Assembly (NCBI GenBank): GCA_037013685.1
Contig: CM072888.1
Span: 11,327,034 to 11,391,033 of the forward strand
DNA from: Acridotheres tristis
Lineage: Eukaryota; Chordata; Aves; Passeriformes; Sturnidae
Direction of reading: 5' to 3'
Length of the DNA: 64,000 nucleotides
Every line of letters starts with the position of its first letter. Position 1 is the first letter of the stretch. Below the pieces are notes generated by a model. The model did not search any database and had not been told where the DNA came from. It worked only from the letters and a program-made list of their open reading frames with translations. The translations under genes and the position numbers were made by a program. Positions 4,481 to 61,130 of this stretch are shown piece by piece.

Positions 4481-6582
4481 ACCAAGGGGCAAACTGGCTG
4501 GGCACGGATGTCCCTGCTGGCCACCAGCGCTGGGCATCAACAGGAGCATCTTCAAAGCCAATGCTCCTGCTCCTGCAAGCTGGCAGCAGTGTGCTGAGAA
4601 AGAGCCACTAACCAGGGAAATTACCTTTAAGGCATTCTTTATATAGCAAATATTTAAGATTATTATTCCCCAGTTTACAGCAGGACAAATTACAAGGTTG
4701 CAGCAGGCCTTGCTGCTGCTGCTGATGCTTTAATCCCAAATGTCTCCAAGCCAATCCCTGGGAAAGGAGGGTGACATGGGGAGCGCAGAGGGCCCTTGGT
4801 TCTGCCCCATGTGCTGCCAAAAGGTGCCAGCACTGAGAAGGAGAGGGCTGAGGGCAGAGCCAGCAGATGTGTGTCAGGGGGAACTTTATTTTTTTGCTTT
4901 TCCTGGGCAGTGCTTGCAGCAGCTGCTCCAGATGTGGCCTGGGATTGCCCCATTGGGAATGGGAGCAGCTGCCAGGGGCTGTTCTGGCAGTTGAATTGTG
5001 GCAGCCAGGTACTCCAGAGGGAGGTGGCAAAGCCCTTGTGGAAACACCCACACCCCAAAGTGAAGGCAAAGTTATTGATTTGTTATTTTTCCAGTTTCAA
5101 GGCTCATGGCTGTTATCATTATAATAGCCTTGTATGTATATTCATATGTTATATTTATCTAAGTACAACAGCCACCAGAATGTTTGAATCATTCAAGGCC
5201 AGGTCTGACAGGCCTTTGAGAAACCTGGTCTAGTGAAAAGTGTCCCTGCCCATGGCAGAGGGGCAGAATCTGGTGACATTTAAGGCCTCTTCCAATGTAA
5301 AGCATTCTGTGATTGTATAGATTTATGGTTCTCTGGTTCTATGAGTCCAGTACGTTCCCTGACTGTATGTCAAATTGTTGCTTCAAATATATATGTAAAA
5401 CACCAAGCTTTGCCCATAAAAATATCATGGGAACGTTAGTGATAGCAACATTTGAAAGAAAAGCTCTTGAGATGGGTACATCAAGTTTCTAAGCAGTTTT
5501 CAAGCAGTTTCCAAGCTTCCTTGTTCCACTAGAGCAGCTCTTTGCCTGGAGCTGGATGGACAAGGCAGAAAGAAGAGCAATCAAATATGTCCTGCTAAGG
5601 GATGCAGAAATGAGCCTGGCCAAAACCAGCACTGTCCAAAGCTTGTAGGAATTGCCATCAGGGTACTTGGGTACCTGCTTTCCTCTCCAGAGTGAGGCAA
5701 GCTTGTGTTCAGAAGCACAGCCTGGTTGCAGGAGCATTTGTGCCTTGTGGGAATAGTGTGGTCAAAAACCCGGCCCTGTCAAGGGCATTTGCACAACTTT
5801 TGGACTGTTTAGTGAAATCTAGATTTTCCTGCTGGCCACTTGTGTGCTTTGTGGCCATGTCAAGGATAAGCTGGTGACAGGGCAGGCTTCCCTGTCATGC
5901 TGTTTATTCACATGTGGGCATGCATCTCTCTGTGCCCAAGTTCTGCCAATGCCAGGTCCATTCAGCAGAAATGGGAAGAAATTTGGAATGACTTCTCCCT
6001 GCATGCACTTCCTACTTCTCCCACTTTTGTTTCTCTTGAAATTCAAGTGGGCACCATGTTCTTTGAAGGCACTTTATTTCCCAGCCAGCAGGATGGTTTT
6101 CATGCTCGTGAGGGAGGAACAAAGATGCAGTGTTTGTTTGCTTCCAGGTGTGTCCTCTGAGCTTGGTGTCAGTGTCTCTTGTGAGGCTTCCCAGCTGCAG
6201 GGGGAGGTGGGGCTCTGGCAGGATCCCCATCCACAGGATTCCCATTCTGTGGCTTGCAGAATGGTTCCCTGCTGGTCCCTTCCCTGGTGTTACAGCCATG
6301 GCTTGGAGCTCAGCTGCTTCAGCTCTTCCCCAAGTGTCTGTGCTCCTGTTCCACACCACTTGCTCTAAGTGGGGTGGCTCACAAGACTTCACAGAAAACT
6401 CCTGTAGCCTCCTCCCCAGCAAGAAATCATTCTGCTCTCTCTGGAGTGTGAGATGCTGTAAATGAATGTCACAAATTGAAATGTCAATGCTCTCAGTCCT
6501 ATTTCAGCCAGTTTGAATTTTTTTACTTCTGCTGAGAGGATCTCGTTATCTTTTTATCTAGAGCTGTGTTTTCAGGGCTTTA
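4481..6582 (+). other. Probable first intron of the AFF1-type gene, left part
   Basis: If the CpG block is exon 1, this is intronic. Apart from the CR1 end at 5175-5335 I see no exon-like segment with supporting splice sites. The overlapping open frames here share no recognisable protein similarity. Confidence 0.4.
5175..5335 (+). mobile_element. CR1 LINE 3'-end fragment
   Basis: The + strand holds TTTGAATCATTCAAGGCCAG, the GAGAAACCTGGTCTAGTG block, TGTCCCTGCCCATGGCAGAG and CCTCTTCCAATGTAAAGCAT, then TTCTGTGATTGTAT. This is the conserved order of the avian CR1 3' end in sense orientation, moderately diverged. Confidence 0.85.
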
Positions 6583-6682
6583 NNNNNNNNNNNNNNNNNN
6601 NNNNNNNNNNNNNNNNNNNNNNNNNNNNNNNNNNNNNNNNNNNNNNNNNNNNNNNNNNNNNNNNNNNNNNNNNNNNNNNNNN
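6583..6682. other. Assembly gap (100 N)
   Basis: A run of exactly 100 N, the usual placeholder for a gap of unknown size. LTR copy B begins at its right edge, so the missing sequence may be repeat-rich. Any untranslated exon inside it would be invisible. Confidence 1.
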
Positions 6683-7045
6683 TGGTGTGTAGTTAGAATA
6701 GAAGTGTGTAATTTCACATGGTGAAGGGTTTGGAATTTGGGGTTTTTATAATATAGTAGTAAGTACGGAACAAGGTGAATGGTCTTGGGTGTTGGTTTGG
6801 TTTTTTTCCTTCTTGTTCCTTCTTCTTCATGATTTCAGGTAGCGGTTTTTGGTTGGATAGTTAGTGCTGCACTGTGGGTCACAGGTGTTTAGTTATTGAG
6901 TCAAAAGTATAAATAATATAGATGCTAGTTCTTAATTGGATAGTTAGCTTTTAAAAGACTTTGTAACTAGCTAAATTTACCTCAATTTTCCTACAAGAAA
7001 TTTGTCTTTTGAACATTCAATTCTGACTCTAAGTGAAGACAGGAG
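6683..7045 (+). mobile_element. LTR copy B, beginning at the assembly gap
   Basis: The sequence starts TGGTGTGTAGTTAGAATAGA and continues with TTTATAATATAGTAGTAAGT, a CCTTCTTGTTCCTTCTTCTT tract, AGTTATTGAGTCAAAAGTAT and AATTCTGACTCTAAGTGAAG. All blocks match copy C at 23988 in order. Copy B lacks the segment of copy C that holds the AATAAA signal, so it is internally deleted. No coding retroviral sequence is visible next to it. Confidence 0.75.
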
Positions 7046-7436
7046 AAAAAAGATAACCACTGTCACATTTGGTTAACTAAAAGCAGGGTTCTCAGGGCAC
7101 ATTTATTCTGAAAATTGAACCAAATATCCTGGAGCCTGTAGCAGTGGCCAGGTTTGTCATGCTCTTGGCCAAATCTGGAGTTAAGAGCTGACCTGAAATG
7201 CAGCATCACCACTGGGGGAAGGGGAAAATGGATCTCTTGGTTCCCCCCATTCTCAGCTATGTGTAAATCCCAAATTTGGATCATTTATGTTAGGAGCACC
7301 ACCAGTAGGGTATTCCAGGCTCTGAGGGTAGCAAGTCCCTGGAGATCGTGGCCTCTGCTTTAATCATGAACTCCTGCAGATGGTGAATATCTGTTTGTTC
7401 TCTTCCAGAGAAGCTGACTCAAACCGAGGCACTAAA

Positions 7437-10400
7437 ATGCAGCGAAGAGGAAACCAGAACAGCAACGTCAGGTAGGGATTGATTTGATGCAATCTTGGCT
7501 TCCCTGGTTCTGTGATGAATGTTGAGAGGGTTTATGAAAAGAATCCTCCCTCCAATGCACGAATCAGAATCGCCGAGTGGGAGAAATAAAAGTTGTCCTG
7601 TCCGTGGGATTGGTTTCAGAACACGTTGGTATTTTCAGAGCTCCTGTTACAGACCCAGACCTGGATGATGCTGTGGGCCAGGGCAGGTTCTCTGCTGGAC
7701 TTTCTGAAGCCAATCTCTCATAACTGGGGCCAGGGCACTCCCTTCTGCACTTTGGGATGCTTTGGGCCCTGGAGTATTTTCCTGGTTCAGTCTGTAGCAA
7801 AGCACAAGAGTTGGCTTTCTTTCGGGGTGGGTGCAAGTTCTTATTTCTTGTGGAATATGTTTGGAGATGATGAGAACTGAGCTGATGTTTCAGGGCAGAC
7901 ATTTGGCTCCCCCTGCCTCTCTGAGCAGTCAGGGTGATGGGGTTTTCCTGGTGACATATCAAGTGTTGACCACCTGCAGCAAGTACAGCAGGGTTTTTAA
8001 CTCTGCAGCTGTTTTCCCCCTGGGGATGGAGAGGGTGGGACTGTGGAGTCCCCCTGCTCCAAGGCTGCCAGGTGCCTGGAGTTCCCAAAGCTTCCAAATT
8101 TCCCTGACCTTAGGGAAACTGTGCAGGGTTATGAGTGGCAGCAGAGCTCAGGTGTGCAAAGGCTTTGAAGAACATCTTGACAAGCACCTTGAATGGCCAG
8201 GTCAGAGATGGGCAGCAATGGTGTGTGCAGGGCTGGGGAGACTGGGAGAGCTACAGGCTTATCTTTAGGGATTGGGCATTTCAGCAGACGCTTTGCTCTG
8301 AATTTGGAATGTCATCTGGTGCAAAAACCAGATTTATTGTAAGTAATGGCACTCAGAATGAGATGAGGCAGCTGTGCCTCGGCTCTAGGGATGATTAAAC
8401 TTTCAGGAGCTGATTACTGGTGTGGTATTGGAGAAAGTGCCACTGCTGGGGGAGAGAAGGCTCTCCCCTTGCAACCTGTGGCACTTGGGAAGTTGGATGG
8501 GCCAAGAAGAATCTAGGAATTGCATGTATAAAGCATACAATTCCTAGATTCTTCTTGGCCCATCCAACTTCCCAAGTGCCGCTGTGCAGTTGAGGAGAAA
8601 TCGATACGTGCATGGCAGTTTCTCCATTGATGATTGCAAGTGGATTTGCCAGCTCGTGTGCTGATCACCCTCAGTGACTGCTTCTCCATTTGTTTCACAA
8701 TGAAATGGGGGGAGAGTCTTTCCCTTCTCATCCTTGTTGATGTCTGGGATGAGGAGTAGCAATCCCTGGGAAGGATGTGTGCTGTGCCCCAGAGCAATGA
8801 GACACACAGGGGACAGAACTGATCTGTCCACTGTCAGCATCCTGAGAATTTCAACATTGCTTTGCTGCTGGACATGTGCCCTTGTGGGAAAGCCCCAGTT
8901 TCTGCACAGAGTATAAAAACGGGGGTTCAAGTGTTAACTCTCCTTTCTCTGTCTCCTTCTGAAAGCTGGAACAACAACAGAAACCTGCTCCGCCGTCTGG
9001 AGCAAGAGAGGCGGAGGAGGGAGGTGGAGGAGAAATATATATCCCGAGAGAAGACTCCTGTCTTTCCCAAACCTTACAAGGTAATGGGAGTGGGGTGCAG
9101 GCTGGAGGGAGAGGAGGAATGAGGCTTGGGGGGTGGGAGAGGAGAGCTGTGTCTTCTGCATGGGCTGTAGCAGACTTTGGCCCAATCCCTGCAAACACAG
9201 CATCTTCCCATCTGCTCCACGGAGCTTGCCTAACTTCCCTAGTGGGGATGCAGGGTGATTCCATGAAGATGCTGAGCAATGTCTCTTGCAGAGCTGGCTC
9301 TCTTGCCTGGGCTGTTTGTGACATTCCCTCTCTGTTCCTGTGCTGCAGACCAATAAAGAGGATGAGCTGTCACGGCGCATCAAGCACATGCTGGGCAAGT
9401 GGGACCTCAACCTGATCCCACGGCAGGAGTCCCCTCCAAGTCCCCTGTGGTTTCCAGAAACGTCCAAATCCAGGTCACAGACCTGCAGCAGTGGTCTGGC
9501 CTCTAGGAAAACAAACCCACGTGAGGACATAAGGAAGGAATTTTCACTGCCATCACAAGACCTGAAGCCTAACACTAAGCAGAACTCCAGTGATCGCAAT
9601 GAAGTTGTCCCAAAACAGAGGTCAGAAGCCAAAGCTCCACCACCCAAAATCCTTCCTGAGCCTGTCAAGGTGAGTGCAATTGTTGGGGTTCTCTGTTGTT
9701 GGCAGTCCCTCAAGGTCAGGGGATCCTCACACTCCTGGCTGGTGGCTGAGCCTTGGCACTTGGGTCCAGATTGTTTTGTGATTTTGCCAGGCTCATCCTT
9801 CAGCACTGGGATGTTGCTGTGCCCTATGGAAGGTAGAAGTTTACAGTGCTGAGCCATGGCAGCTGGGCCAGGAGAGCCATGGAGATGGTTTTCAAACTGT
9901 GTTTGGCCTTTGGGAGGAGAAGGAAGAGCTGGAAGCTGCAGTCAGCTTTCCCTGGAAAAGGGTGGTGATCAAGTGCAAAGGACTGTAGGCAATGCCTTGT
10001 GGAAAATGAGAGGGAGCTGAGAGAAGTAAAGCAGTGCAGGGCCTTGCCTTCTGCAGGAGCCATTCTTCTGTGCCAAAAAAATAAAGCACCCTTCCTGGTC
10101 TCAAACTCTTGGAAATGCAGAGTGCTGCAATCAGCCCTCAGGCCAGCAGCAATGGGCAGTGTTTGTCCTTGCTGCTGGGATGAGCCTGATTTTATTGGAG
10201 TGAATGACAAATGTCAGGGAGTATCAGTGTGAAGAAAGGAGCAGGGATGCTGCATCTTCCTTGGAGAGGGTGGTGAGGGAGGGGAAGGAGGGGGTGCCCA
10301 GAAACATCTGAGACAGGCTTGGAATCCCTGGCAGCTTCTGCCATCAGCTGGGGGTGGGCTCAGCTCTGCAGAACATCCCCAGGCCCAAATCTGGCTGCTG

Positions 10401-13400
10401 AATCCATCACTTGGCCAAGCATGGGAGAGTGAGAAACGGTAGCTGGGGATTTGCAAATCCTGCAGGGGCAGCAAGAGGATGGCTAAAGTCAGCCAGGACT
10501 TGCATAAACTGGGTTGCATCTTTCCAGATGTGTCAGAACTCCGTGTCTTATGCAGACTGCTGTGGCCTTTAGAACAATAAGGAGTCTCGTTTTATTTGGG
10601 TGAATGAGAAATATAACTCTTTCTCTAGAACTGACTTAGAAAAATTGACAACCATTATTTCTGACTGTTTTTTTTTAACCAAGGAAGCTTTTTGCTCCAC
10701 TCTTTTAAATGCAGAGGGAGCCTGTGCCCCTGAAGGCAAAGCTTAGCTGCTTAAAAAAAAGGGAGAAGACTGCACAAACATACTTACATAACAGCAACAA
10801 CAAAATAATAATAACAACAACAATAATAAATAGTAGTAATAGTAGTAGTAGTAGTAGTTTAAGAATGGAAACAATATTTCCTGACTGCCAGGTTCCAAAG
10901 GGAACACAGACATTTTCCTCAGAGGAGGAGAAGGTGACTGTGGGGATTTCAGCTGGTTTTCCACCTGGTCTCCATTATTCACTCCCCTTCAGATGGGCCT
11001 TTTCATCCTTACTGGCATTTTATTATTAATGGACTTGCATGACATTTGTAGAGCTGTTGGTAAGCACATGCTGGCTGAGTGCATGTCAATTAGTAAAAAA
11101 CCCAAATCAACTCCTGCCTCCCTTGTTCTCATTTCAGGAAAAGAAGCCCATTGGTATTGGTGTGCCATCCACTGAAAAAACTTTGAAGGTTGGTGCTCTT
11201 CAATAATAGATCTCTGTATTTGCTTGTTTTGCATACATTAAGGAAATGGGTGGGGAAAAAATGCATTGCTCAGCTCCTGTTCACTCAGCAGTTGTTTCCC
11301 TCCCTGAAAGTGTGTTTTGGGGTGGGTGAGGAGAAGTCGAGATAAAAGCTGGAGCTGTAAGATGTTGTAAGTTCAGCCTTCCTCTCAGTGTGTAACACTC
11401 TCTAGAGCAGCTCAAGAGCCATCCCATGACAACTCATCCTAAGCAGCCAGAGCTGCTCCTTCCTCAAGGTGGAGGTTTCCATTCCTGAGCTCCCCTTGCC
11501 CAAGGGCTCTGGACCTGCTGCCTTGTGTCTGGGCTTCCAAATTCCCATTGCCAACAAAGGGAAACCAGCCCCGTGCTTGCAGCACAGGGTGTTACAGAGA
11601 CCCAGATGCCCTTGAGCTTCTGAGTGTTTCTGAGGGCCAATGTGGCAGCAAACTTCTCTTTCCTCTCTCCCATTGTTTTCAGTAGGCTCTGCATTTGTAG
11701 AGCTGTAACATGTTTGAGCCAGAGGATGAATGGAAAATGCTTCAAGGACTCCCACTTTTGTTACAGCTGTGATCTCCAAATCAGATGTTTTTCACGGACA
11801 TTTGAAGCATGTCACGTGTGGAACCACAAACCCCATTTTACCTTGATTGCCAGCAAAAGCTGACAATAATGATCTGAGTGTGTTAGGCAGAGGTGGGAGT
11901 GCAGAGTGCTGCCCTCCAAGTCAGCTTTAGATGGTGCCTACACCAGGCACACAGATCTTTAAATCATCCCCACTTGCTGCACTGTGCTGAATTCCCTGAG
12001 CTAACCTTGCCTCCCCCTCTCCTCTTTGTTTTTTTGAACAAAACAGGTTGTGGAAAAGCCAGCTCCTTCACTTGCTCCTCCAAGGTACAGTTCCCAAACA
12101 ACCCTCTAGACCAAACTAGAAAAACAAACATTTTCACATGAGGGGGAGATGGGAAGGGGTTCCTGGTTCCTCCTGAAGCTTTGGTTTGTGGCTGCCTGGA
12201 GCTGCTGTTGAAAATTGGTTTCAGTTTTATGAGGTTTTCAGGAAAGCTCCAATTAGAAAGGAATAACCCGGGCATGCTGGAGTTTGCCTATGAAGCAGAC
12301 TTGTATTTCCCCAGGTGTTCCCTTCTTCTCTCCTCCTCCCCTCCTCCAGTGTGTCTGTAGATCCTGTGTTTTTGTCTTAACCAAGGAACACAGATGGAGA
12401 AAAGAAAGCATAAGGGGAAGAATAAATAAACCCTCAAAAATCTAACCTGAAATTTGTTGGGCTCTATTGGAAATTTTCCTTTGAGGGTTGTTGCTTTCAG
12501 AAAGGCACTGGCAAGTTTTGGTGTTTAATTAACTTTAGTTGGCAAAAGACAGGTTCACAATATAGCAGTGAGATCCTGTTTACATTTTTGTCTGTCTGGG
12601 TGTGATGTTGAAGGTTTGATTATTCCCCCAGAGGAGTTTTGATGCTGGTTCTTTATTTCTGGAGCATGGCAATGTGTTCCCCTGGCCCTCTCCCCTCTGG
12701 TCTCAGTGGCCAAATATAGGGTTTGGGTTTAGATTTGAATTCTGCCATGTCAGTGGGATAAGTGAGTAACCTTTCCCCTGCTGCAGTTTAATTTTGTCTC
12801 CTGGTGGCCTTGCAGAGCTCTCCAGCCCCAGCACAAGAGGGTGGCACCAGCACAGCCCAGCAGCTGCGAGTCAGGGAGCTCCAGGGACTGCCACAGCTCC
12901 CCAGCCTCTGCACTCCCAAGTGCACCAGCACCCAAGGTGAGTGCAAATCCAATGTAGAGGCTGCTCCACAGCAGCCCTTGCCTCCCTCTCTGCAGTCTGA
13001 GGGCAGCCACGACAGCAGACCTGAAATCCTGTCCCTCTTAGGTGTCCCCTTGAGACCTCTGCAGCTGCATCAGACTTTTCTTGCCCTCTGCTTCCCTTTT
13101 GGAATTTGTCAATAAATAGCCCTTCTTGGACTTCTGGAGCCTAACCTGGCAGTGTTGCCCCTTGTCCCTTGGCATCATTGTCTAGTCCTTCTGGAGTTTT
13201 CACCCCAGGATTAGTGCATTTTGAAGCTGAGAGATGAAACCTGCAGTGCATGTGCTGGATCCTCTGCAGTAGGGAGCTCTGGGCTGTGGCCCCTGACTGA
13301 CTGATTTCTGGTCATGGCTGTTTTGGACAATGGCTCTAGACGTGAAAAATTCATTCTTTGATTTTCTGCTTCTTTCAGTCCTGTTGACGTAATATTTTTC

Positions 13401-16400
13401 TTAGTTCTGCTTGGTCTCAAAGATGACCCTGTCTTTGATACCACAGTCCTGCAGTGCTGGAGGCTGGAGCCAGCCTGAGTTACCTGAGCAGGAGCAGTGC
13501 TCTGCACTGGAAGCCAAGCACCAACTACACCTTGCAAGGGTTGCATTTTAGCCAGGGCTATTTTTAATTTTTTTTTTACTTCAGAGAGATGAGTCTGATT
13601 TTATTTGAATCAATGACAGATATTCCTCCTTCTCTAGAACTGAACTGAGAATTTCTCTAGAATTAGGAACTGTTATTGCTAAACTGTGTTTCCTTAACTA
13701 CTGAAACTTTTTGCTCAACTCTTTCACATGCAAAGGCAGCCTGTGCCCTTGCAGGCAAAGCTTAGCTGCTTCAATAGCAACTAAAGGAGAGTGATATTCA
13801 ATAAAGGGAGCAGACTGCAAGAACATACTTCCTAGAGAATATGAATAAAAAGTCAGCAATGGAAGCTCTTTCCTGACTGCCAGGGAAGTCAGACATTGAT
13901 CTCACAGGAGGTGACAGTGGTGGCTTCAGCTCTTAATCCTTACGAGCATTTCTCTTTGAATGGACTTGTATGACATTTCCAGACCTGCTGGTCAGCAAAT
14001 GTTTGCTGAGTGCTTGCTTGTTTGCTATCAATGAGTAAAATATCCAAACAAACTCTCACTGCTCCCTCTTTCTTGTTTCAGCGCATCCTGCACGTTTATG
14101 TGCAGTCCATTGAAGGAATCTTGAAGGTGGGTGCTCTTCAATACCAGATCTCCTGTACAAATCCATGAGGAGGTGGAACCCTCTGGCTCTGGAAGGCTGA
14201 AACTCCCTCTGTGTCCATCAGCAAAACTCCTGAGAGCTGCTTCTCTCCCTCTCTTCGCAGGAGATGAGCAGCCCCCTGTCACCTCTCCTGTCACCTCTTC
14301 AGACACCAACTAAAGCAGAGATTTCCAGACTTGCAGTGGCAACAAAGGTAAGCCAGCCCAATTTTCCCAGGGCTTCTGATAAATTACAAAAGATCTTTCT
14401 GCTGAGCAGAAGTCCGGCTCAGCTGTTTGGCAGCTCTTAGAATGTTTTAAAAATAATTCTTCCAAATTGCACATACCCCTAATGTGCCATGAGCACAGTT
14501 TTGGAGTCAGTAGATGTGTTGTTAAGCTGCATGCTAAATTACTTTGTCTTTTCATTCTAGGAGTCCCAACCTGACGGATCTGTAGCACAGAAGCAGGGTA
14601 AGTAGAAATGCAAAGAAAACCCAGTTCTTTATGTGCTGACAGGTAATTTTGTGTGTTTTATGTAGCAGAGACCATCAAGCTTCATTCACACTGATGAAGC
14701 AGCATGATTTCCTCTGCTTTGCTGAGCAGGGGTGAATTGAGGAATGGCTTAAGAAACTGTAAACAATCATTACCTGGAACTCCAGATAGCAGTTCAGCAG
14801 AGGACAAGCAGTATTTTGTTCATCACTGCCATCTGGAGTGATGAACAATCTTGATCTTTGAGGGGCAAACCCCTCCTGGAAGAAAGCACCTGCCTCATCT
14901 GGTGCTCAGAGACCAGAGGGTAAAATATGCTACAGGTCAGGTAAATAAACACAAGCTTTTCATTCTTGATTTCCAGAGCAGGCTGGTGCAGCTTCAGAAA
15001 CGTGGCTGAGTTCTGAGTCAAGAACATCGTAAGTAACCAGACTCTGTTCCAATCTCTGCTGGGAAAAGAACCTGGAATGAACAAAAATTTGGGTTATCTT
15101 AAGTCAGATTTTTCTCAGAAAACTTCAATGCAGGGAATTTTCACCAACAGAAAAATTATTATTTCTTGATGGACTCGTGAAATGGTTTAGGTTGGAAAAG
15201 ATCCTGAAGATCAAGTCCTATAGCTAATCCAACAACACCAAGTGCACTAAACCATGTCATGATGACAGTGACTGTGTTTAAAACCAAAATAAAGTGAAAG
15301 TGAAGAAAAAGCCCCCAGGTCTTCATGTACCAGACTGAAAAAGTCTTCTTTTAATCTGTGGTGCTTAACATCACACTTTGTGCTTGTCAACCTGCTAATA
15401 ATGCCGTTGACAGCAATAAATGCTAAGGGATACCAGCTGAATCTGATCACTCCTGGATATGGTTTTGAAGCCTGGCAGGACTAGTAAAGCTACAGCTACA
15501 AAAACTGTAGAAATGTAGCTGTGAAATTTGAAAGTAATCTCCTGTGCCCAAGGAAAACACTTCTAAGAAGTTTTGCAATGATTTTTTTCTTATTGAAAAA
15601 TTGAGCAGCTCAGAGTCAGGGAGCTCCAGGGACTGCCACAGCTCCCCAGGCCGTGACCCAGAGGTCAGCTCCAGTGACAGTGAGGAGGACCTTCCAAAGG
15701 TGCTGGACCTGCCAGCACCTGAGGTGAGTGCAGAGACCATGGAGAGGCTCCCACAGCCCCTGCCCACTGCAGGGGGGTGTCCTAGGAAGGAAGCAGATGT
15801 TGTACTTCTCCTCTGGTACCAAATTCTGCCTGGTGTGTCCTGCCAATACTGCTTTGTTAGACCCCTCTCACTCCAGTGAAGGCTTAGCTATTTGCCCACA
15901 GGCAAATATGGGTTTTTTATTGAGGAAATATCCATCCATGGTGCTCAAGGAGCAAGTTAGGGCACATGGCCTGTTAGTTTAGAGTAATTCTTCACAGGCC
16001 AAAGCCCAGACCTTACAACCTCTGGGCAAGAGTCCCTGGGCTCTGGTGAGCTGTGCTAGGACAGAAAGAGCCCATAAAGGCATCAGTCTTGAATCCTTCG
16101 TTTCTCTTTTTGTTGGCAGCCTGAGCCACCAGCTGATAAAAAGTGGTGGCTTGGAAACCTGATGAGCCAGGCAAAGCGAGGAGCAGCACCAGGACAGGGT
16201 CCCAGGGAAATTGCCCGTGGGAATGGACGTGAGGAGGGTGAGAAGCAGGAGCAGGGCATCAGCAGCCGCTCCTGCCAGCAGCACTCCAAGGCAAGGGAGT
16301 CTCCTCACGAGAGCTGTGGCCAAGTGGCCAAGAAATCCCAGCAAACCTGTCAGCAAGTGGCCAAGGGCTCTCAGGAGAGCTCTGGCATGCCAGCCAAGAC

Positions 16401-17232
16401 ATCTCAAAAAATCTCTGGCCAAAGGGCCAAGGATTTCCACAAGAGCTCTGGCCAAGCAGTGAAGGATTCTCAGAAGAGCTGGAGCCAAGTGGCCAAGCAT
16501 TTTCCCAAGAGCTCTGGTAAAGTGGCCAAGGAATTTCACACCAGCTCTGCCCAAGGTGCCAAGGCTTCAGAGAAGAGCTTTGGCCAAGAGCACGAGACTT
16601 CTCACAAAAGCTGTGGCCCAGTGGCCAAGGACCCTCAGAAGAGCTCTGGACAAGTGGCCAAGGATGGTCCCAAGAGCTCTGGCTCCCTGGGAAAGGATTC
16701 CCAGAAGAGCAGTGGCCAGGTGGATCAGGCTCCTCAGCGAGCTCATCTTCAGACTAAGCAGAGCTGCCTGCATCCTCCTGGGCTCACCAAGGAGCCTTTG
16801 CCCAAGGAGTCTGTGGGTACCAAAAGGCCTGGAGAGCCCCTGGAACACAACAAACCCAAAAGGGTGAGGAAGGAGGAGAGTGAGCCTGGTCCTGGGGAGG
16901 TCACAGACCAGCCCTGCAAGGATCAGCTGGAAGTCAAAGAGAAGCCAAAAACCGACAGTGAAGACCCAAAGCTGGCACTTCACAAGCCCTCTGAGGAGAG
17001 AGAGCACAAGGGCTGCCCCCAGGCCAACACCAAAGGGTTTTTGGAGCCTGAGCTCCTGGGAGATGCTCAGGAAGGTGATGCCCTCATCCCCAATGGCCAC
17101 AGGACTGGGGATTTGCACAAGGAGAAAGTGCCCTCACCTCCTGGGGAGAAGAAGTTGTTCTTGCCTGCGAGGAAGCCAGACTTGAAGAGAAAAGAAATGA
17201 GGAATCCTGAGGAGTCCCCTAGAAAGAAGAAG
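7437..17232 (+). CDS. AFF1: AFF1-type (AF4/FMR2 family) gene, 12 in-frame exons; 3' part degraded
   Basis: AFF proteins are scaffolds of the super elongation complex in the nucleus. Exons read as 7437-7471 (exon opens at 7409), 8966-9080, 9349-9669, 11138-11188, 12047-12084, 12816-12936, 14082-14126, 14261-14347, 14561-14597, 14977-15028, 15606-15723 and 16120-17232. Every junction is AG/GT with matching phase, giving 711 codons. Residues about 12-70 match the AFF N-terminal region (RNLLRRLEQERRRRE, PVFPKPYK, DELSRRIKHMLG), which binds P-TEFb in AFF4. GILKEM with a following LQTPTKAE matches the ELL-binding segment. SSSDSEED and PEPPADKKWW match the Ser-rich and following blocks. I do not see the ENL/AF9-binding VKI-type motif or the C-terminal homology domain. 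Tail-to-tail placement with KLHL8 matches mammalian AFF1, but the sequence is very divergent and short (711 residues against about 1200), so it could be an extra paralog. The ATG choice rests on the short first exon. Confidence 0.8.
8480..8580. repeat. Perfect inverted repeat, 43-bp arms, in an AFF1-type intron
   Basis: The arm at 8480-8522 (GGCACTTGGGAAGTTGGATG, then GGCCAAGAAGAATCTAGGAA, then TTG) is the exact reverse complement of 8538-8580. After one mismatch, three more pairs (ATG/CAT) leave a 7-nt loop TATAAAG. It lies in the intron between 7471 and 8966. A stem this long without a mismatch would fold in both DNA and RNA. It resembles a template-switch product, or less likely a small-RNA precursor. 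Confidence 0.95.
10565..11215 (+). repeat. Intragenic duplication, copy 1 (contains exon 11138-11188)
   Basis: This matches 13585-14155 by eye. Shared blocks include CTTTCTCTAGAACTGA or its CCTTCTCTAGAACTGA counterpart, GCAAAGCTTAGCTGCTT, ATTTCCTGACTGCCAGG or its CTTTCCTGACTGCCAGG counterpart, GGACTTGCATGACATTT or its GGACTTGTATGACATTT counterpart, and GTGCTCTTCAATA just after the exon donor. The exon ending in TLK here corresponds to the exon ending in ILK at 14082-14126. Confidence 0.8.
10795..10862. repeat. AAC/AAT/AGT trinucleotide microsatellite
   Basis: A compound run of ACA, ATA and AGT triplets inside the 9669-11138 intron. It is absent from the equivalent place of the duplicated segment near 13.8 kb, so it expanded after the duplication or was lost there. 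Confidence 0.9.
12816..12936 (+). CDS. AFF1-type exon that resembles the exon at 15606 (duplicated exon)
   Basis: Entered in phase 2 from 12084 and left in phase 0, the exon encodes 40 codons with SSCESGSSRDCHSSP. The exon at 15606-15723 encodes SSSESGSSRDCHSSP in the same frame. Both are followed by GTGAGTGCA donors. This is the second half of the same intragenic duplication. The two exons diverge after the shared block, and only the 15606 copy keeps the SSSDSEED acidic-serine signature of AFF proteins. Confidence 0.75.
13585..14155 (+). repeat. Intragenic duplication, copy 2 (contains exon 14082-14126)
   Basis: Partner of 10565-11215, about 2.9 kb downstream and in the same orientation. 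The exon inside this copy, ending IEGILK, joins the next exon starting EMSSPLSP to rebuild the family's EILKEM segment. Copy 2 therefore looks like the ancestral exon and copy 1 like the added one. Confidence 0.8.
15178..15255 (-). mobile_element. CR1 LINE 3'-end fragment
   Basis: The + strand reads GAAATGGTTTAGGTTGGAAA, then AGATCCTGAAGATCAAGTCC and a CCAACAACACCAAGTGCACT block ending AAACCATGTC. This is the reverse complement of a CR1 3' end. It lies in the intron between 15028 and 15606. Confidence 0.75.
16120..17232 (+). CDS. AFF1: Large AFF1-type exon (371 codons) with 11-residue repeats
   Basis: The exon is bounded by TTGGCAG and AAG/GTGAGA and is in phase 0 at both ends. It begins PEPPADKKWWLGNLMSQAKR, aligned with the PEPEPP...NKWQLDNWL segment of AFF1/AFF4. 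The repeat array at about 16312-16730 follows, then VGTKRPGEP (compare VGTKQPKKP in human AFF1), and it ends in a very basic stretch with LKRKE and PRKKK. If the donor were not used, the reading frame would close at 17266-17268 after 11 more codons, which would make a natural truncated product. Confidence 0.8.
16312..16730 (+). repeat. 33-bp coding repeat encoding about 13 copies of an 11-residue unit
   Basis: The translated unit is close to SGQVAKDSQKS. Examples in order are CGQVAKKSQQT, CQQVAKGSQES, SGMPAKTSQKI, SGQRAKDFHKS, SGQAVKDSQKS, SGKVAKEFHTS and SGQVAKDGPKS. The period is exact, copies differ by substitutions, and none disrupts the frame. Human AFF1 has no such array in the corresponding region as far as I can recall. 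Confidence 0.9.
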
Positions 17233-17475
17233 GTGAGAGGGGCAAGGGGAGGTGGGTTTGGACAATGACCAAGGTGGTGTTTGAAAACCCCATGTGGAGA
17301 TTCCCTTCATAGGTTGGCACTAGAGCCATGATCTTTCTCCTCTAAAGACAGCTCCATGTGTTATTTTTTCTGTTTTCAACCAGAATCTGTCAAACGGAGC
17401 TGTACTGGTCTGTACTTTATGTGAACTTTCAAGACCTGACTGATTTTATTTCCCTTTTTTCTTTCTTCCTGTTAG

Positions 17476-20253
17476 AGGGAAGACAAGGGGGATACTCCCA
17501 GGAAGAAAAAGGAATGAGAAAAAATCCCCCCAAAAATTTCAGCCTTCAGCAAACAAAGACTGCAGTAAACTGAAGTGAGTATGCAGTGGTGGGATGTGTA
17601 AATCTAAGTCAGAAGGGTGAGAAAAAGAACTGTATCTTCTGTCCAGACCCTTGGGAGTTTGCTTCTAATTTTGTGTGCCTTCTGCAACTTGACCTGCTGC
17701 AGATTGGCCTTTCCATGCTGGAAGCAACCAGTGCAGAAAGCAGCTCTGCAGGTGGAGGTGGGTGAGGGTAGGGAACCTTTCCCTCCTGACATCTTCTGGA
17801 AGCTCAGAGGTGTTGGGCTTGGTGTTTGGCTGGGGGAAGGGATGTTCCAATTGCAGTAGGAATGGCAAAGCTTTAATTGTGGAGTTCTTTGCTCCCTTTT
17901 CCTTAGGGAAAATGAGCAGCTGTCTTAGTCATGTGCTGGCTTTTGGAGTGGGAGGGGTAGGAGGTGTTTCTGGGCAGAGAGGGCTCTGGATCAGGTTGGG
18001 GATGGTGCTGTGCTCTGTGTCCAATGTGATGTGCAGCATCAGCTGTGCCAAGGCAGAGCAGCTGGAGAGCACGTGTGCAATGTGTAGGGACCAAAGCATG
18101 GCAAAGGTGGGTGCTGAAAGAGGGGAGAGGACTGTCCCATGCACAGCAGAGTCAGGCAAGAAGTGCAGCCCCACATCTGAGCCTTCCCACTGCGTTTAAC
18201 TTCATTTCCTCCTCTTCTGATGCTCCAGTCCATGAGCTGGGATTCACTGCTTGCTGTGTTCTTGGAAACTTTGAGGAGCTGACTAAAAATGGTGGAAATG
18301 AGCAGTAGTGAAACAAGGCTGAGAGCTATTCGGTGCTGCTTCTTGCTGCCAGAGTTCCCTGGTCATCCTGATTTCAGATGATCAGAAATCTGCTAGGCTG
18401 TTGTGTTATTGAATGTTAAAATCCCTGCCAATTAAAAGTCCCTGTCACTTGAAGCCTCTCAGCTTTGGAAGCGTTGTCCAGTTGAGACACTGGTGAGATC
18501 TGGTACAGGATGCAGCCAAGTTTTTAAGAACATTGTATGTGCATCATATTAATGAATTTCCTTCTCTTGTGCAGAGCATCAGAAGCTTCATTCCAAGCTG
18601 AGAGGAAGAATGTGGTGCTGCCACCACTGCTGGCCGTGACTGCTGCACAACGTGCACCAAACTCAACCCAAAAGAGACTCAGAACCGAGACTGACAACCT
18701 GGACCTGCCTGCCACGGATAACCCTGCCAGGAACCAGGAGCCAAGCACAGGAAAGTGGAGGAAGATCACAGGGAACAATGCCAGGGCATCACCATGGATA
18801 TCCAGGAGAGCTGACAGGAGGATTCCTGCAACCCACACGTGCTGTGTGATTATCTTCAGAAACATCCTCTCAGATAAGTAACTCTTTCTGATTGCAGCCA
18901 ACTGCAAATGCAAGACTGGTGTAAAAAGGAGTGTGTTTCTAAACAGAAATCTTTTAAATTTTGTTTAAAAATAAGGAACAACAAACCTGTGGGTGTGGCT
19001 GCAACCTGGGCCTGAAGTTTTATAGCTTGCTTACAAAATAGTTCATAACCCTTGCAGCTTTGCATTTCTGGGTTATAAAATTGGATTTTACTGGCTGCTT
19101 GTTAAAATTTGGCTGTTTACTGTTGGCTTGGGGTGTGGGATTTAGGATGTTTGGGGGAGGGTGGGGCTGTGAGTTAAGCCAGGCTGTGCACCCTGTATTT
19201 GCTGCCTTCTAATAGCTCATTTTTTCCTGATAATTTTCCTCCTTCCAGCCCTCACTGCTCTCTCAGCCACTGAGAAGGAAACCTGCTGCTGAATTTCTCC
19301 ATGCCTGGGAGAAGTTTAATGATTCCAAAGCACTGTGAGTTGCCAAGTGAGAAGCCAAGGTTCCATTTCCATTATTGGAGGGATTGCTGGGGAAGGAGGC
19401 GAGAGGGGGAGATCCTGGAGCACAGACTATGCCTGGGACAAAGGAACATTTTCTCTGGAAATTTAGGATAGCCGGCCTTTGGAATTGCTTTAGGCATCCC
19501 TCTCTGACCAGCTTTCTCTCTATGGTTTCTCAGGGATCTGCAGGGGATGAGAAGAATCCTTTCCCAGCGACTTCTCTGCCAAATGAAGACAAGACAAGGA
19601 GACTGAAGTTGGAACAGTAAGTGTTTGTTTCACAGCCCTGCCTGCAGTTTCTGAAGACACCAAACAGGGCTGGCCCTGCAGCCACCCCAGTTCCTGCTTC
19701 CTTATTCCTCATTTTGGGAGCAAAGAGAGAGGGAGGGATGGGGGAGAGCACCTGCTGAGTAGCTTAGCTACAGCTGGGCAGCACTTGGACTTTTGACTCC
19801 TTGCTGGGCTTGTGACCAACATTTGCCAAAAGGAATTCCTAGAGCTGCTGCTACGTTTTTGTCCAGTTTAGTCATTACAAATGTCGTGCTGTCCTGTGGT
19901 GCAAGCAGTGGGGAATAGTCAGAAGCTGTAACCTGCCATCCCACGGGGCCTTTGCAGTGTCATTTTCCATAAAACACAAAGTTTTGTGGGCCCCTTTGGG
20001 CAAAGGGATGCATTGCCATGATCTGCTGGCAAACTTGCAAAAGGAAAAAATCGGGATGTGCCTGGCAGAAGGGCTGGGAGGCTGTAAAAATCCTCTCCAT
20101 AAAGAGGCAGCTGCTGAAAGTCAAAGAGCTCTGCAGGTTCTCTTTGAGTAAAGTCACTCCAGTCATTGAGTGTCTTCTGCCAGACGTGCCTGTTGGATGA
20201 ATCTAACCAAATGTTTTCTCTATCCCTCCTTTTGTTCCAGAGATTTCTGCTGA
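17476..20253 (+). pseudogene. AFF1: Degraded 3' exons of the AFF1-type gene
   Basis: AFF-like segments continue but do not join cleanly. The 100-base candidate exon 17476-17575 starts in frame as REDKGDTPRKKKE and then hits TGA. Its other end (PSANKDCSK) is AFF-like in another frame, implying a one-base loss or two-base gain. The segment from 18575 (ERKNVVLPPLL, then QKRLRTETDN) matches the KKEMLPPPP...LKRSRREAD part of AFF1 but has no clear GT donor and runs to a stop at 18879-18881. Exon 19534-19616 (SAGDEKNPFPATSLPN) matches SSGDTANPFPVPSLPN. The final exon opens at 20241 and stops at 20251-20253, while the AFF-like helix residues (NKAKRRDQE) lie in a different frame. The C-terminal homology domain never appears. 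Sequencing error could explain one lesion but hardly all of them. Confidence 0.6.
19249..19334 (+). other. Exon-like open segment of unknown identity
   Basis: A good acceptor (CCTTCCAG), 28 open codons including AAEFLHAWEKFNDSKAL, and a GTGAGT donor make this look like an exon. It sits between two AFF-like exons. Its phase does not fit the next exon, and I find no AFF counterpart for the peptide. It may be a recruited exon, a decayed one or chance. Confidence 0.3.
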
Positions 20254-21625
20254 ACAAAGCCAAGAGACGTGACCAGGAGCCGGCCTGAGCTCATCCACTG
20301 AACGAGACAGAATTGACAGTGACTGAGACTGGAGCCCAAGTGCCTTAACTGGGTCTCCAGGATGTAAATAGTTCCATGTTCTCTGTTCTTTTGGAGCCTC
20401 AGAAACAGTTTTGTTTTGTTCATTTTCTTACTGTTCAATGCAAAGCACCTGCATGTTTTTTGTTTGTTTTAAATACAGTTTGAAGTTCTTTTGGCTACCT
20501 CAGGAAAGCTTTGTGTTTTTGGAGGGTAATGCTTTTCTGCCTTGCAAAAGAAGAGATGGAGGGTGGTACCTGCCTTTAAAATAACCAAGTGCAAGGAATT
20601 TTCGGGATGGGCCCATGTGCTGGTGGTCTATAAACCTGTCTATTATGAATAACTAACAGGACAATATTGCCACCTATTGCTGACAGGAAATCTGCACTCA
20701 GATTGTTCCTGAGGGTCTTGCTCAGTTTCAGCCTTGTCAGAGCCAAGTTTGGGTGGCAGAATGACACCCAAGGTGTGGTTGGAAACAGCTCTGCCTGTCT
20801 CCTGTGCTGAAGGGATGGGACTCACAGGGAGGATTCATACTTGGGCTGCTTTTTGGCATTTGGGTTGGTGAGGCTGGGAAACTGCAGTGGGTCCCTGGGA
20901 CTGCTTGGGCATTGTTGTGAGTCTGAGAGCTTCCAGGGAGAGGAATCTCTTCTGATAAAGGAGAGATTAAGTGGCTGAATGTGGAACATAAGGCACATTT
21001 TGCATTTGGGTATTTGCCTGCAAGCACTGGTGGTCTCAGGGAGTGTCCAAGAGCAGAATTTGGTACCAAAGTAGGGCATCCTTCCTGTGGGAGAGGACTT
21101 GGGCTCCCTCTCCCACAGGAAGCCACACTCTAGGATGGGCCCAGTGACTTAGAAACCTGCCAAGAGAACCCAAAAGGGAATAATGAGCTGTTTGCAAGCA
21201 TTTTTCCCTTGGCACACTAACAGTGGAGGCAGCATCCACAGCACTGGTGTGTTCAGTTGACACCCTTTCCTTCCCAGAGATTTCCTGGAAATTAAGCTTG
21301 CAGTATGGCTCAAAGGGGTTATTGTTTTCAGAGAAGTCATGCTTCTGTGAAAAAAAAGAAAACCCCAAACCCCTCCAAGTTCTGCAGTAACCTTTCAGCT
21401 GACTTTGATGGGCTTTGGATCAATGTTATTTATACAAGATATTAAGATCAAGTTCAAAAAACTGTTAAACAAAAAGTTTTATTTGTACAAGTAGTTTCCT
21501 TGTCCCTCAAACACAGCTGAGCAGCTTCCTTTCTACAGTTGTATTCCCTGTATTCCAGTATGAAAGCAAGTTTTTGGTAATGGTCGTCAAATGGTCAATA
21601 AAACATGGATGCTTGATATCAGTGA
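20254..21625 (+). terminator. 3'UTR and poly(A) signal of the AFF1-type gene
   Basis: After the stop at 20251-20253 no further AFF-like exon is seen. A canonical AATAAA at 21597-21602 is followed by a GTGAGTGATTCTGG region, giving a likely cleavage site near 21620. The 3'UTR is about 1.4 kb and includes the hairpin at 21081-21122. Confidence 0.55.
21081..21122. repeat. Inverted repeat, 16-bp arms, in the AFF1-type 3'UTR
   Basis: CTTCCTGTGGGAGAGG at 21081-21096 is the exact reverse complement of 21107-21122, with a 10-nt loop. In the transcript it would form a GC-rich hairpin. Confidence 0.85.
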
Positions 21626-23987
21626 GTGATTCTGGAATCTTCATTTATCACCATGCTGGTCCAGTGTGTTGAGTTGACAAAGATTTCCTGTTGTGTGACT
21701 GCAGCATCCTGCCATCCAATGCTGTGCCTGCCTCGGCCCTCTGCTGCTGTCACATCCCTTCCCTATCTCTGACACACCTGTGAGAGTGTGGAGAGGATGG
21801 TATCCCAAAATAATTTGGCTTACAAGGAAGAACTATATCATTTCATGATGAAGAAACAGGTCTGCACACGTTTAGCTGTACCCCCTTTGTAAAATACCTG
21901 TTTGTGGGTCTGAGGCTCAAGAAAATGACCAGTAAATAAATACCAGCAACATGTCTGCATTTCCAAAAGGGGTTTCTGTAGAAAGGGCTCCTGCCTGGAG
22001 CCCTTCTGCCCCTGCAGGACCACTGGGATCATGGCTGGGTCTTCCTACATCTGCAAGGGACTTCAAGGGCCTTTTATGTTCACTTTAACAAAAACCTTTC
22101 AGGGATAAGCTGCCCTAATGGGTGCAAGGAAGGTCCATGTTCCCCCTCCCCGTTTTACCTATCAAACCTTTTTTACTCCCTGTCCCTGGAGTTATCCCTG
22201 CCCATAGCAGGAGGGTTGGAACAAAACCATCTTTCATGTCCCTTTCAACCCAAGCCATTCTATGATTCTATGAAAAAGTAGAAAAGTTTTAAAAATCCAT
22301 TGTATTTCAACCTCAAGCCAGGTCAGGGGTCTGCAAAGGGTTAGGACAGATGCTCATTGTTTTCACTTGGGCCTATTCTAGGACACGGACAAGGTGACTT
22401 TTTACCTGTTCATTTTGTCTGCCAGCTTTGACCTTCTATCAGTGAGGAAAATTTAATTAAGGGCAGTAACTGACCTTCTGCTCAAAACCAGTGACCAGTG
22501 GGTGTGAATCAGCATCACAGACATGCAGAGGGGTGACTTCTTTGCCACTCCCAGCACAGCCAGAGCTGCACAGTTGCCTGCTTAGAGCACAGTTGCATTA
22601 AAATGCCACAAAGTGGCAGCAACAGCAGCCTCGCAGATTGAGCCAAGGAGGAATTACAAATAAATGTTTCATCTCCTGGCTGGCTGGGATTTATTTGACA
22701 CCAGTTCCAGTAGAGAAGACGTGCAAAGCTTTAGAAAACAAATGCAGGTGTGATAAAAGCAGCCAGCAGAAGTAAAAAAAATTAAGTGAAGTATCTGGAA
22801 CAGAGTACTTGGGTTTGCAAAACTGCACTGCAGTGATGCCAAAAATAGTTGCAAGAACAGTTTCAGTCTAAAGAACAGAAAGGCTCATTTGACTGTGGGG
22901 AAAATTTAGAGTTAAGAATTTCCCAGTAATTTGTTCTAATTAAGCTTGAATAGGCTAATTGGCTGAATTTTGATCACCTGTTGACAACTCGTTTGTGAAA
23001 TGAATCTCAGTGTGGTTTGATGTGGGAGCCACAATCCCATCACAAGGGATCCTGCTGAGCATCCTGCAGCTGTCCCAGCAGACATAGCAAACCCAGGTGC
23101 TGCTTCTTGTTCCCATCCTGGTTTGGGGAATTAGTTTGGGCTGGAGCTGGGAAAGCACGTAGTCAGCGTTGCATTCAGAGCACCTTGATTTCATCTTTGG
23201 CAAACCTTTGCTTAGGAGTTTCCCTGGGTTGGTGGGACCTCAGCCTATTCCTCAGTGATTGCTGTTTGTAGATTTTTTTGCTTCTTGATTTGTCTTTCAT
23301 GCAGCTTGTTTCCAACTCCTAGAAGAGATGAAAACACTCTACAATGAAAATGCTGTTGCAAGTGGAGGTAAGAACACAGAATTGAGGTCCTGCACCCAGG
23401 ACACTGGAAGGCACCCTGATTTTAAGTAACTGCACACAAAAAGCTCAGTTTTCTGCATCCCCCTCTGCAGGCAGGCGTTTCTAGTTGGAATAATTTTCCC
23501 AGCTGCTGTTCAAACAGGATGGAAGTTTGCAGTCTTTCTAATAGGAATGCATTTATGTATTTGGTTTATATTTTGAAATATGCAAGTGTTGTGTGCTTTG
23601 CCTTCTAAAATTTTCTGTTCTGAGTATTTTAGCAGGATGTCAAATCCAAAGAGCTTTGCTGCCAGCATGCCTCTATTAGGAATGAGACTCTGCTGGGAAA
23701 GAGGAGTAATAAATAGTATTTGAAGCTGGGAAAGTATAACCAAATAAAACATAAAAAACATAATTAAAGAAGGTGTATTGGGTAGGGCCTCCTATCACTG
23801 TGTGGCTGCTCTGTTCTTCAGCATGAAGTGGGGGGGGGATATTCCTTTGTCATCATTGTTCCATTATGGGAACTTAGAAGCTTGGAAGTTTTGAACTTTT
23901 TGTCCTTTTTGACAGTGGCTCTTAGGGGAATACTACTTTTGATTTAAGGCCTTGGAAAAGGCATCCAAATTTGAGTAATAAAGCCAC
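21626..23987. other. Intergenic sequence between the AFF1-type gene and LTR copy C
   Basis: It holds one CR1 end (22180-22275) and otherwise nothing I can support. A 46-base segment at 23321-23366 has splice-like borders but no homology and is listed among the rejected items. Confidence 0.5.
22180..22275 (+). mobile_element. CR1 LINE 3' end
   Basis: The + strand reads CCTGGAGTTATCCCTGCCCA, then AGGAGGGTTGGAACAAAACC, CCCTTTCAACCCAAGCCATT and CTATGATTCTATG. This is the CR1 3' terminus including its ATTCTATGATTCTATG end. Confidence 0.9.
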
Positions 23988-54100: not shown

Positions 54101-54289
54101 TAGCTGTGGCACCCAGTCATTTGTAGAGAAATACTGCACTGTTTTCATGAGGAGGTGTTTTAAGTATGTCTGGAAAGTGCAGAGGAGCAGTGTGAGAAGT
54201 TATACAGGGAAAGGTGTATTTCTTGATACCATACCTTACATGCATGTCTAGGACCTGATTATGACTTTCACTGCCAAGAGACACTGTGT

Positions 54290-60700: not shown

Positions 60701-60743
60701 GGAGCGTGACCAGGAACAGGAGAACCTCCACAAACAGATTCAT
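54767..60743 (-). CDS. HSD17B11: 17-beta-hydroxysteroid dehydrogenase 11/13-type short-chain dehydrogenase (complete)
   Basis: Seven exons on the - strand: 60743-60534, 58344-58237, 57626-57495, 56862-56756, 56070-55933, 55671-55555 and 54854-54767. AG/GT junctions and phases agree, giving 299 residues (human HSD17B11 and HSD17B13: 300). Residues 1-28 are a hydrophobic N-terminal segment of the kind that anchors these enzymes to ER and lipid droplets. The Rossmann motif TGAGHGVG is at 42-49, NNAG at 119-122, catalytic Ser172 (TVASAAGH), and Tyr185 with Lys189 in YCSSK. The family oxidises or reduces steroid and retinoid alcohols with NAD(P). CSKREEIY and FEVNILGH resemble HSD17B13, while [15 protein letters not shown] and VASAAGH resemble HSD17B11. 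I cannot decide between them, and the symbol is provisional. KLHL8 is the next gene on the same strand, as in mammals. Confidence 0.93.
58548..58930 (-). mobile_element. CR1 LINE 3' part in HSD17B intron 1
   Basis: The + strand reads AATCATGGAATGGTTTGGGT, TGGAAGGGACCTTAAAGATT, CAACTTGTTCCAGTACCTCA and TTTTTCCAGGCTGAACAATC, the reverse complement of the CR1 3' region. It is well conserved. Confidence 0.95.
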
Positions 60744-61130
60744 TGTTTTCCCGGAGCTCTTTTGAGGACGGAACCGAACTTCAATCCCGTCTGAGGAGAC
60801 GCAGGTTGTTGATTTACCCTCTGCCCGTCTCAGTGCGCGCCGCTGGTCCCATTCGCTCCCGCAGGATCCACCCCCGCACCGCCCGCTGCTCCGCCCAGCT
60901 ATTCCAGTCTGAGCTCCCGGTGTCCCACCCTGAGCTCTCGGTCTTGCATTCTGAGCTCCCGATGTCCCACTCTGAGCTCCCGGTGTCCCTGTGCCGGTGC
61001 GGAGGAGCTGCACTCTGTGCTCGCAGAATCGTGCTCGCCCTGCAGCGCATGGAACGTGCCGGGCGTGGATAAAAAATGCGCTTTTTAGGACGTTATCTGC
61101 CCTCTTGGCTGAGGAAAACACAGACGATGG
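60744..61130 (-). promoter_or_regulatory. HSD17B 5' leader and probable promoter, with a 21-bp tandem repeat
   Basis: GC-richer sequence upstream of the ATG (60743-60741) on the - strand. A four-copy 21-base repeat (unit about CTGAGCTCCCGGTGTCCCACC) lies at 60909-60992. The reading frame of the ATG stays open upstream to 61121, so an N-terminal extension is formally possible, but homologs start at this Met (MN--LE-LL pattern). No TATA box is evident. Confidence 0.45.
60909..60992. repeat. 21-bp tandem repeat, 4 copies
   Basis: Units begin CTGAGCTCCCGG or CTGAGCTCTCGG and are exactly 21 bases each, with substitutions only. Like the 27-bp minisatellite near 4 kb, it contains GAGCTC and CCGG in a CpG-rich promoter setting. 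Confidence 0.9.

Follow-up and report, generated by a model that had tools for sequence, protein, structure and literature searches.

AFF proteins are few, with AFF1 to AFF4 in mammals, and are dosage-sensitive. The closest described system to the gene reported here, which we call AFF1L, is AFF1 (AF4) of vertebrates, with which it shares the ancestral gene, exons and exon phases, the NHD, parts of the CycT1 segment and of the ELL module and, in this genome, homologous introns; AFF1, however, has a long exon 3 with a degron, an ENL/AF9 motif and a C-terminal domain, all of which AFF1L lacks, and the first coding exon of AFF1L is a different one. Comparable as well is AFF4 (structures 4imy, 5jw9 and 6r80), a super elongation complex member whose P-TEFb and ELL peptides are matched by AFF1L and whose AF9-binding and C-terminal dimer domains have no match there. 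In AFF3 and AFF4, variants of the degron are reported to cause disease (PMC11137988). A parallel among passerine genes is the growth hormone duplicate GH2; according to the abstract of PMC10016047, no other gene is known that all major passerine lineages carry and other birds lack. Like AFF1L, GH2 is a passerine-only duplicate with fast protein change, but AFF1L was seen here only in oscines and manakins, New Zealand wrens not being among them. Some of the NCBI models named "AF4/FMR2 family member 1-like" are AFF1L orthologs, the names being assigned automatically. No study of AFF1L was among the listed results of literature searches on songbird AFF1 duplication or paralogs and on AFF1-like gene names, and the terms AFF, AF4, FMR2, KLHL8 and HSD17B11 were absent from the text of the songbird gene survey PMC4377847.

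The window, that is, the whole stretch of DNA analysed, comprises 64,000 nucleotides of the common myna Acridotheres tristis (assembly GCA_037013685.1, CM072888.1, positions 11,327,034 to 11,391,033). The original prediction described in it a shortened AFF1-type gene at 7437-20253, with 12 exons joined in frame for 711 codons. Rebuilding the coding sequence from the DNA gave the same 12 exons (7437-17232, plus strand) and 711 codons without a frame break, and a 13th exon from 17476 added 13 codons in the same frame before a TGA at 17515-17517, giving a protein of 724 residues with GT..AG borders at 12 of 12 introns (Table 1). The codon at the stop position is TCA (serine) in this genome's AFF1. 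The predicted span was thus too long, coding ending at 17517 and the remainder (17518-20253) consisting of relics of later AFF1 exons that form no coding part of the model. An AG at 7407-7408 precedes the ATG and is kept in both AFF1L and the matching region of this genome's AFF1, which suggests a further upstream 5′UTR exon. The acceptor of exon 11 (15604-15605) lies at the joint of an internal duplication and is not an ancestral splice site; the exon itself is present in gene models of relatives. A 100-base assembly gap occupies 6583-6682, inside the AFF1-derived block and near the possible 5′UTR exon. Elsewhere in the window, a 27-base tandem repeat (3984-4389; 15 copies, 94%) is open in several frames on both strands.

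Table 1. AFF1L, the AFF1-derived block around it and the neighbouring genes, in window positions
Feature	Position	Strand	Remark
Whole AFF1-derived block	5755..22378	+	collinear with C6:14805774-14732302 (minus), 73.5 kb reduced to 16.6 kb
Exon 1	7437..7471	+	first coding exon, MQRRGNQNSNVS (MEPTDNQNSDNS in relatives)
Exon 2	8966..9080	+	NHD start and first part of CycT1-binding segment
Exon 3	9349..9669	+	remaining CycT1-binding segment TNKEDELSRRIKHMLGKWD
Exon 4	11138..11188	+	first copy of AFF1 ELL-binding-helix micro-exon, degenerate
Exon 5	12047..12084	+	VVEKPAPSLAPP
Exon 6	12816..12936	+	serine-rich exon, first copy
Exon 7	14082..14126	+	ELL-binding-helix exon, second copy (QSIEGILK)
Exon 8	14261..14347	+	ELL-binding elbow EMSSPLSPLLSPLQTPTKAE
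Exon 9	14561..14597	+	
Exon 10	14977..15028	+	
Exon 11	15606..15723	+	serine-rich exon, second copy; acceptor at duplication joint
Exon 12	16120..17232	+	371 codons; in-frame 33-base repeat array; AF9-binding segment missing
Exon 13	17476..17517	+	conserved tail REDKGDTPRKKKE and stop
Internal tandem duplication	13933..15850	+	second copy of stretch 10973-13196
Relic of later AFF1 exon	18573..18812	+	3′ of AFF1L stop
Joint with AFF1 sequence missing	19747..19774	+	4.1 kb missing, five C-terminal-domain exons included
KLHL8-type gene	29814..36827	-	BTB/BACK and kelch exons; tail-to-tail neighbour of AFF1L
HSD17B11/13-type gene	57432..61169	-	

The prediction that the N-terminal P-TEFb-binding motifs are kept held for the extended part and first helix of the CycT1 segment, but not for the second helix (NYEEVKEF in AFF1), which is replaced. 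The spliced window protein matched 4imy, the P-TEFb-binding AFF4 peptide, with an E value of 1.3e-7, and a profile of 11 AFF1L relatives did so with 6.5e-12. PF05110 (N-terminal AF-4 homology) was matched by 10 of the 11 relatives, and the window exon-2 ORF alone scored 23.8 bits, under the 26.9 cut-off. With the second helix gone, any P-TEFb binding by AFF1L is likely weaker. Nine positions shared with AFF4 were invariant in 10 oscine AFF1L rows (F35, P38, K40, T42, E45, L48, R51, L56 and D60), and the importance of this AFF4 site is reported in PMC3589825. Conservation of the whole CycT1 segment among oscine AFF1L was average for the protein (p 0.37 vs random columns).

The predicted absence of a VKI-type ENL/AF9 motif and of the C-terminal homology domain was borne out. 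Among the four AFF module structures, AFF1 of A. tristis (P0029) matched all (P-TEFb 4imy, ELL 5jw9, AF9 2lm0 and C-terminal domain 6r80), and Motacilla AFF1L matched 4imy and 5jw9 only. In the PDB search, with an E value limit of 1, the spliced window protein matched neither an AF9-complex chain nor one of the C-terminal domain, and neither 2lm0 nor a C-terminal-domain chain was matched by the 11-relative profile. The SIAH degron of the ALF region (KPTAYVRPM, scanned as PTAYVRP) was found in 0 of 22 AFF1L rows versus 113 of 114 AFF1-length proteins, and an ENL/AF9-type motif in 0 of 22 versus 112 of 114, with the qualification that the 22 rows include partial models and absence from short rows means little. 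Three manakin rows carry an unrelated PSALVSP. Exon 3, which holds the degron in AFF1, has 107 codons in AFF1L compared with about 340 residues in AFF1, and the SIAH degron is lost. PF18876, the C-terminal homology/dimer domain, had no Pfam match in any of the 11 relatives scanned, and five of the AFF1 exons that encode it fall in a 4.1 kb gap of the AFF1L alignment. Three further listed proteins without PF18876, P0148 (Cariama), P0161 (Microcebus) and P0168, keep the degron and look like pieces of AFF proteins other than AFF1L. A parrot protein annotated "AFF1-like" (Lathamus discolor P0160, 745 residues) is without the degron and keeps the C-terminal domain, possibly representing a separate AFF1 duplicate.

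The predicted EILKEM-type ELL segment was kept in part. By eye, and using the AFF4 letters that we take to stand at these sites, residues I319, L320, M323 and L331 of AFF4 are retained in the window protein, so that key helix residues are present, but the equivalents of Trp327 and Phe345/347 are altered and the window protein alone matched 5jw9, the ELL-binding AFF4 peptide, weakly (E 0.072); the 11-relative profile matched it at 8.6e-9. The importance of these AFF4 residues is described in PMC5290273. The helix pattern occurs twice in six oscine models (Motacilla, Coccothraustes, Vidua, Agelaius, Oenanthe and Cyanistes), joined by Zonotrichia when an altered copy is allowed; 10 of the 11 manakin models scanned have three modules and the Pipra model two. 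The window gene has one good module plus another, degenerate helix exon. In Mimus, Melospiza and Geothlypis the pattern occurs once, and in some partial rows it is absent. More than one module was never found in the 114 AFF1-length proteins; the ILxEM pattern of the helix was absent from 66 of these 114 models, many of which are without the micro-exon, and at least 40 join another exon directly to EMTRS, as if the micro-exon had been skipped in annotation. Among oscine AFF1L, the module was conserved to an average degree (p 0.56 vs random columns), and exons 9-10 were better conserved than average (p 0.0018).

A multiplied ELL module fits an active adaptor as well as a competitor of AFF1 and AFF4. 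Degron-free and ELL-rich, AFF1L might recruit P-TEFb and several ELL molecules to selected genes, perhaps in germ-line cells, and activate them. The doubled and tripled modules and the lost degron speak for such a role, as does the statement in PMC11137988 that AFF4 degron variants resist SIAH1-driven degradation and that raised AFF3 is harmful; but AFF1L has neither an ENL/AF9 site nor a dimer domain with which to reach chromatin in the known way, and just one good ELL module remains in this genome. We consider activation of this kind rather unlikely.

The original prediction had left open whether the gene is an AFF1 paralog or a degraded AFF1 ortholog. A genome-wide search with PF05110, in which the window locus was not among the matches, located four other AFF loci, at C7:6.71 Mb, C6:14.775 Mb, C18:1.12 Mb and C1:84.6 Mb. 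Those on C7, C18 and C1 are presumably AFF2, AFF4 and AFF3, judging from bird karyotypes and intron sizes. A full AFF1 lies at C6:14.735-14.776 Mb, on the window's own chromosome, 3.4 Mb from AFF1L and inverted relative to it. It carries the degron, the ELL module, the AF9-type motif VVKIDLCHLEKVP and the C-terminal domain, the last located by local tblastn with P0029, to which most of its exons are 94-100% identical. The presence of this full AFF1 in the same genome rules out a degraded ortholog and supports the paralog option. Window 7592-22378 is collinear with C6:14779708-14732302, introns included; upstream, 7068-7583 aligned to C6:14804733-14803304 and 5755-6546 to C6:14805774-14805266. 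The aligned intron bases differ at 22% (1222/5514), a Jukes-Cantor distance of 0.26, which is an underestimate because only the alignable intron parts enter it. An assembly artefact or a haplotype copy of AFF1 was ruled out by this 78% aligned-intron identity together with the orthologs in other species. Judged by these alignments, AFF1L is a compressed duplicate of AFF1.

The flanking genes bear on how the duplicate arose. PTPN13 (PF16599, the sole genome match) lies at C6:14836409, past the 5′ end of AFF1 and on the same strand. The KLHL8-type and HSD17B11/13-type genes are both past the 3′ end of AFF1L, and no gene to its left was identified by eye among the window ORFs. We take the BTB/BACK/kelch neighbour to be KLHL8, and the human order PTPN13-AFF1-KLHL8-HSD17B to be contiguous. 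PTPN13 beside AFF1 and a KLHL8-type gene beside AFF1L suggest duplication at inversion breakpoints: an inversion of 3.4 Mb with staggered breaks, leaving a copy at either end, would explain both the inverted orientation and the split flanking genes. Window 5389-5635 is 73% similar to C6:14727462-14727702, just past the AFF1 3′ end, and may be the other edge of the rearrangement or a repeat. At the other side of the window, 53711-54251 and 63471-63992 hold nearly the same open frames 10 kb apart, flanking the HSD17B region.

Where AFF1L models from relatives include the start, most of them open with MEPTDNQ, MEPPDK or close variants. Only two of the 114 AFF1-length proteins, those of the non-passerines Gymnogyps and Ciconia, start with MEPTDNQSSNNG followed by the common exon 2. 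No passerine AFF1-length protein had a start of this type, but most are incomplete or have MAAQSSL as their start, and isoforms may be concealed in the clustered set. In this genome's AFF1 the counterpart of exon 1 is MEFTDMKNSGNN, located 27 kb upstream of exon 2, with its splice donor changed from GT to CT. AFF1L thus probably inherited an alternative first coding exon that was lost from AFF1 in this genome. The relatives' starts and the homology to the AFF1 upstream region ruled out that exon 1 is accidental.

Protein searches found AFF1L in 14 oscines (Motacilla, Coccothraustes, Vidua, Zonotrichia, Agelaius, Melospiza, Geothlypis, Oenanthe, Mimus, Hirundo, Serinus, Cyanistes, Zosterops and Acridotheres) and in four manakins (Pipridae; Pseudopipra, Manacus, Chiroxiphia and Pipra), with one further piece, P0087, among the matches. 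The orthologs are mostly annotated "AFF1-like", and the fuller models of relatives span 596-1208 residues. The window protein was 98% identical to the Acridotheres AFF1L piece over 66% of its length. Manakins are suboscines. The suggestion of a songbird-specific gene proved too narrow, since manakins also have it. No AFF1L-like protein from a named non-passerine was among the matches listed; one search listed the best 120 of 185 and each scored only 7,984-7,991 candidates, so that little weight attaches to absence elsewhere. In the main tree of 26 rows (11 AFF1L and 15 AFF1, chosen from 176 proteins), AFF1L formed one clade (100/100) among the passerine AFF1 lineages, and AFF1 of Acridotheres grouped with other AFF1, not with AFF1L. 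A quicker 30-row tree, with five partial oscine rows left out, gave the same clade. This placement and the collinearity with the AFF1 locus agree with the predicted AFF1-type identity. Independent duplications in oscines and manakins were not favoured, as grouping manakin AFF1L with suboscine AFF1 gave p-AU 0.0005 and 0.0002, a test that shares the attraction risk posed by the long branches in both AFF1L groups.

A second AFF1L copy was found at C56:28901523-28915725, 97.3% identical to the window over 11.9 kb. Because C56 (80 Mb) carries DMRT1, it is the Z. The frame of the Z copy is open over 710 compared codons, the sole coding indel between the copies being 6 bases long and in frame. It is changed at three of the invariant CycT1 positions, F35, K40 and R51, with the equivalents of the contacts Phe35 (F to L) and Arg51 (R to H) lost. 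Divergence between the copies was 2.8-7.2% per 500-base interval up to 14.6 kb of the window, 1.2% in the next and <1% beyond, a mosaic that suggests later exchange between them. In the swallow Hirundo rustica, five AFF1L models (P0012-P0016) lie apparently on the same contig, some with odd ends, and suggest local copy-number growth. Such copies could also belong to a fast-evolving, copy-number-variable gene under germ-line or sex-chromosome conflict, in which elongation binding would be incidental. The Z-linked copy, the five swallow models and the several models per manakin species would suit this, as would the amino-acid divergence of exons 2-7 between copies, 0.067 compared with 0.037 in introns (p 0.006). 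Synonymous divergence in these exons was raised too, however (0.10, p 0.001), so a mutation effect is possible, and for this reason we do not claim positive selection. A conflict gene appears to us quite improbable.

Weak constraint raises the question of a decaying relic, whose transcription would be at most noise and whose frames would survive by chance or annotation bias. Between the window copy (chr4) and the Z copy, dN/dS was 0.68 overall (no test against 1) and 0.64 in exons 2-7, where a Fisher test showed no difference from 1 (p 0.21). Over the same 10 species pairs, AFF1L was 56-76% identical versus 90-97% for AFF1; between AFF1L and AFF1, dN was 0.36 and dS 0.63, exon 3 aligning poorly. 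Decay would also fit the merely average conservation of the binding segments, the contacts lost in the Z copy, the short or odd models in Cyanistes, Zosterops and the swallow, and the non-ancestral acceptor of exon 11. Against it stand the 724-codon open frame with all splice sites intact and the open Z frame, as well as six other songbirds with models of 771-807 residues. The window branch showed no nonsense change, compared with about 4.1 expected (P 0.016), nor did the comparison of the window and Z copies, where only about 2.3 were expected (P 0.10). Across 10 oscine models none was seen beside 924 amino-acid changes (914 masked) versus about 50-57 expected with free frames, a figure conditional on gene models being called, since models select for open frames. 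Gaps between AFF1L and AFF1 were about half as frequent in exons as in introns (10.2 vs 22.6 per kb), and 7 of 14 exon gaps versus 30 of 128 intron gaps had lengths divisible by 3, a pattern that mildly favours coding.

The C-terminal tail also counts against decay. Exon 13 is used by 12 oscine copies, among which those of the window, the Z and Acridotheres are near relatives; the tail was identical in 10 and differed by one and three residues in the other two, and manakin models reaching it end KKKRGEI instead. The oscine tail had 3 changes in 13 columns, compared with a mean of 1.43 per column (random-column p 5e-5), when the Mimus tail was masked because that model ends elsewhere, and 13 changes (p 0.12) unmasked. 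Open frames and a conserved tail argue for an AFF1L protein, and we read AFF1L as probably translated, weakly constrained and fast-changing; that it is a relic we hold to be unlikely.

The origin, domain content, open frame and species presence of AFF1L are read from sequence, and from these we propose a passerine paralog whose protein, mostly disordered and monomeric, would serve as an adaptor for P-TEFb and ELL apart from the usual super elongation complex, a reading that we place close to, but just short of, an even call. AFF1L was probably born with a chromosome inversion before the oscine/suboscine split. Its protein would hold P-TEFb via what is left of the AFF cyclin-T1 site, the extended segment and helix 1, and ELL via one to three ELLBow modules, and would be without dimerisation through the AFF C-terminal domain, ENL/AF9 binding through the known motif and SIAH marking through the AFF degron. 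A stable AFF1L of this kind might divert P-TEFb and ELL from AFF1/AFF4 complexes, in line with the competitor role that the original prediction had put forward, or might carry both to other targets or form a small complex of its own. In the most far-reaching form, which we regard as doubtful, passerines would have evolved a new elongation scaffold, a stable, monomeric and ELL-multivalent P-TEFb holder, after an inversion duplicated AFF1 and the copies split its alternative first exons.

Beyond what had been predicted for this locus, the analysis adds the loss of the SIAH degron, the multiplied ELL module, the alternative first exon, the inversion flanks and the Z copy. How the first exons and the flanking genes are divided between the two copies offers a concrete case in which to test for duplication by inversion. 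AFF1L is a candidate passerine-specific gene, where PMC10016047, in its abstract, names only GH2 as passerine-wide. If the most far-reaching form is true, the AFF1L scaffold would join a very small number of new genes shared by all passerines. An AFF1 derivative that has long persisted without the degron, the dimer domain or an ENL/AF9 site, and that in several species has a multiplied ELL module, would constitute a natural test of uncoupling the parts of the super elongation complex.
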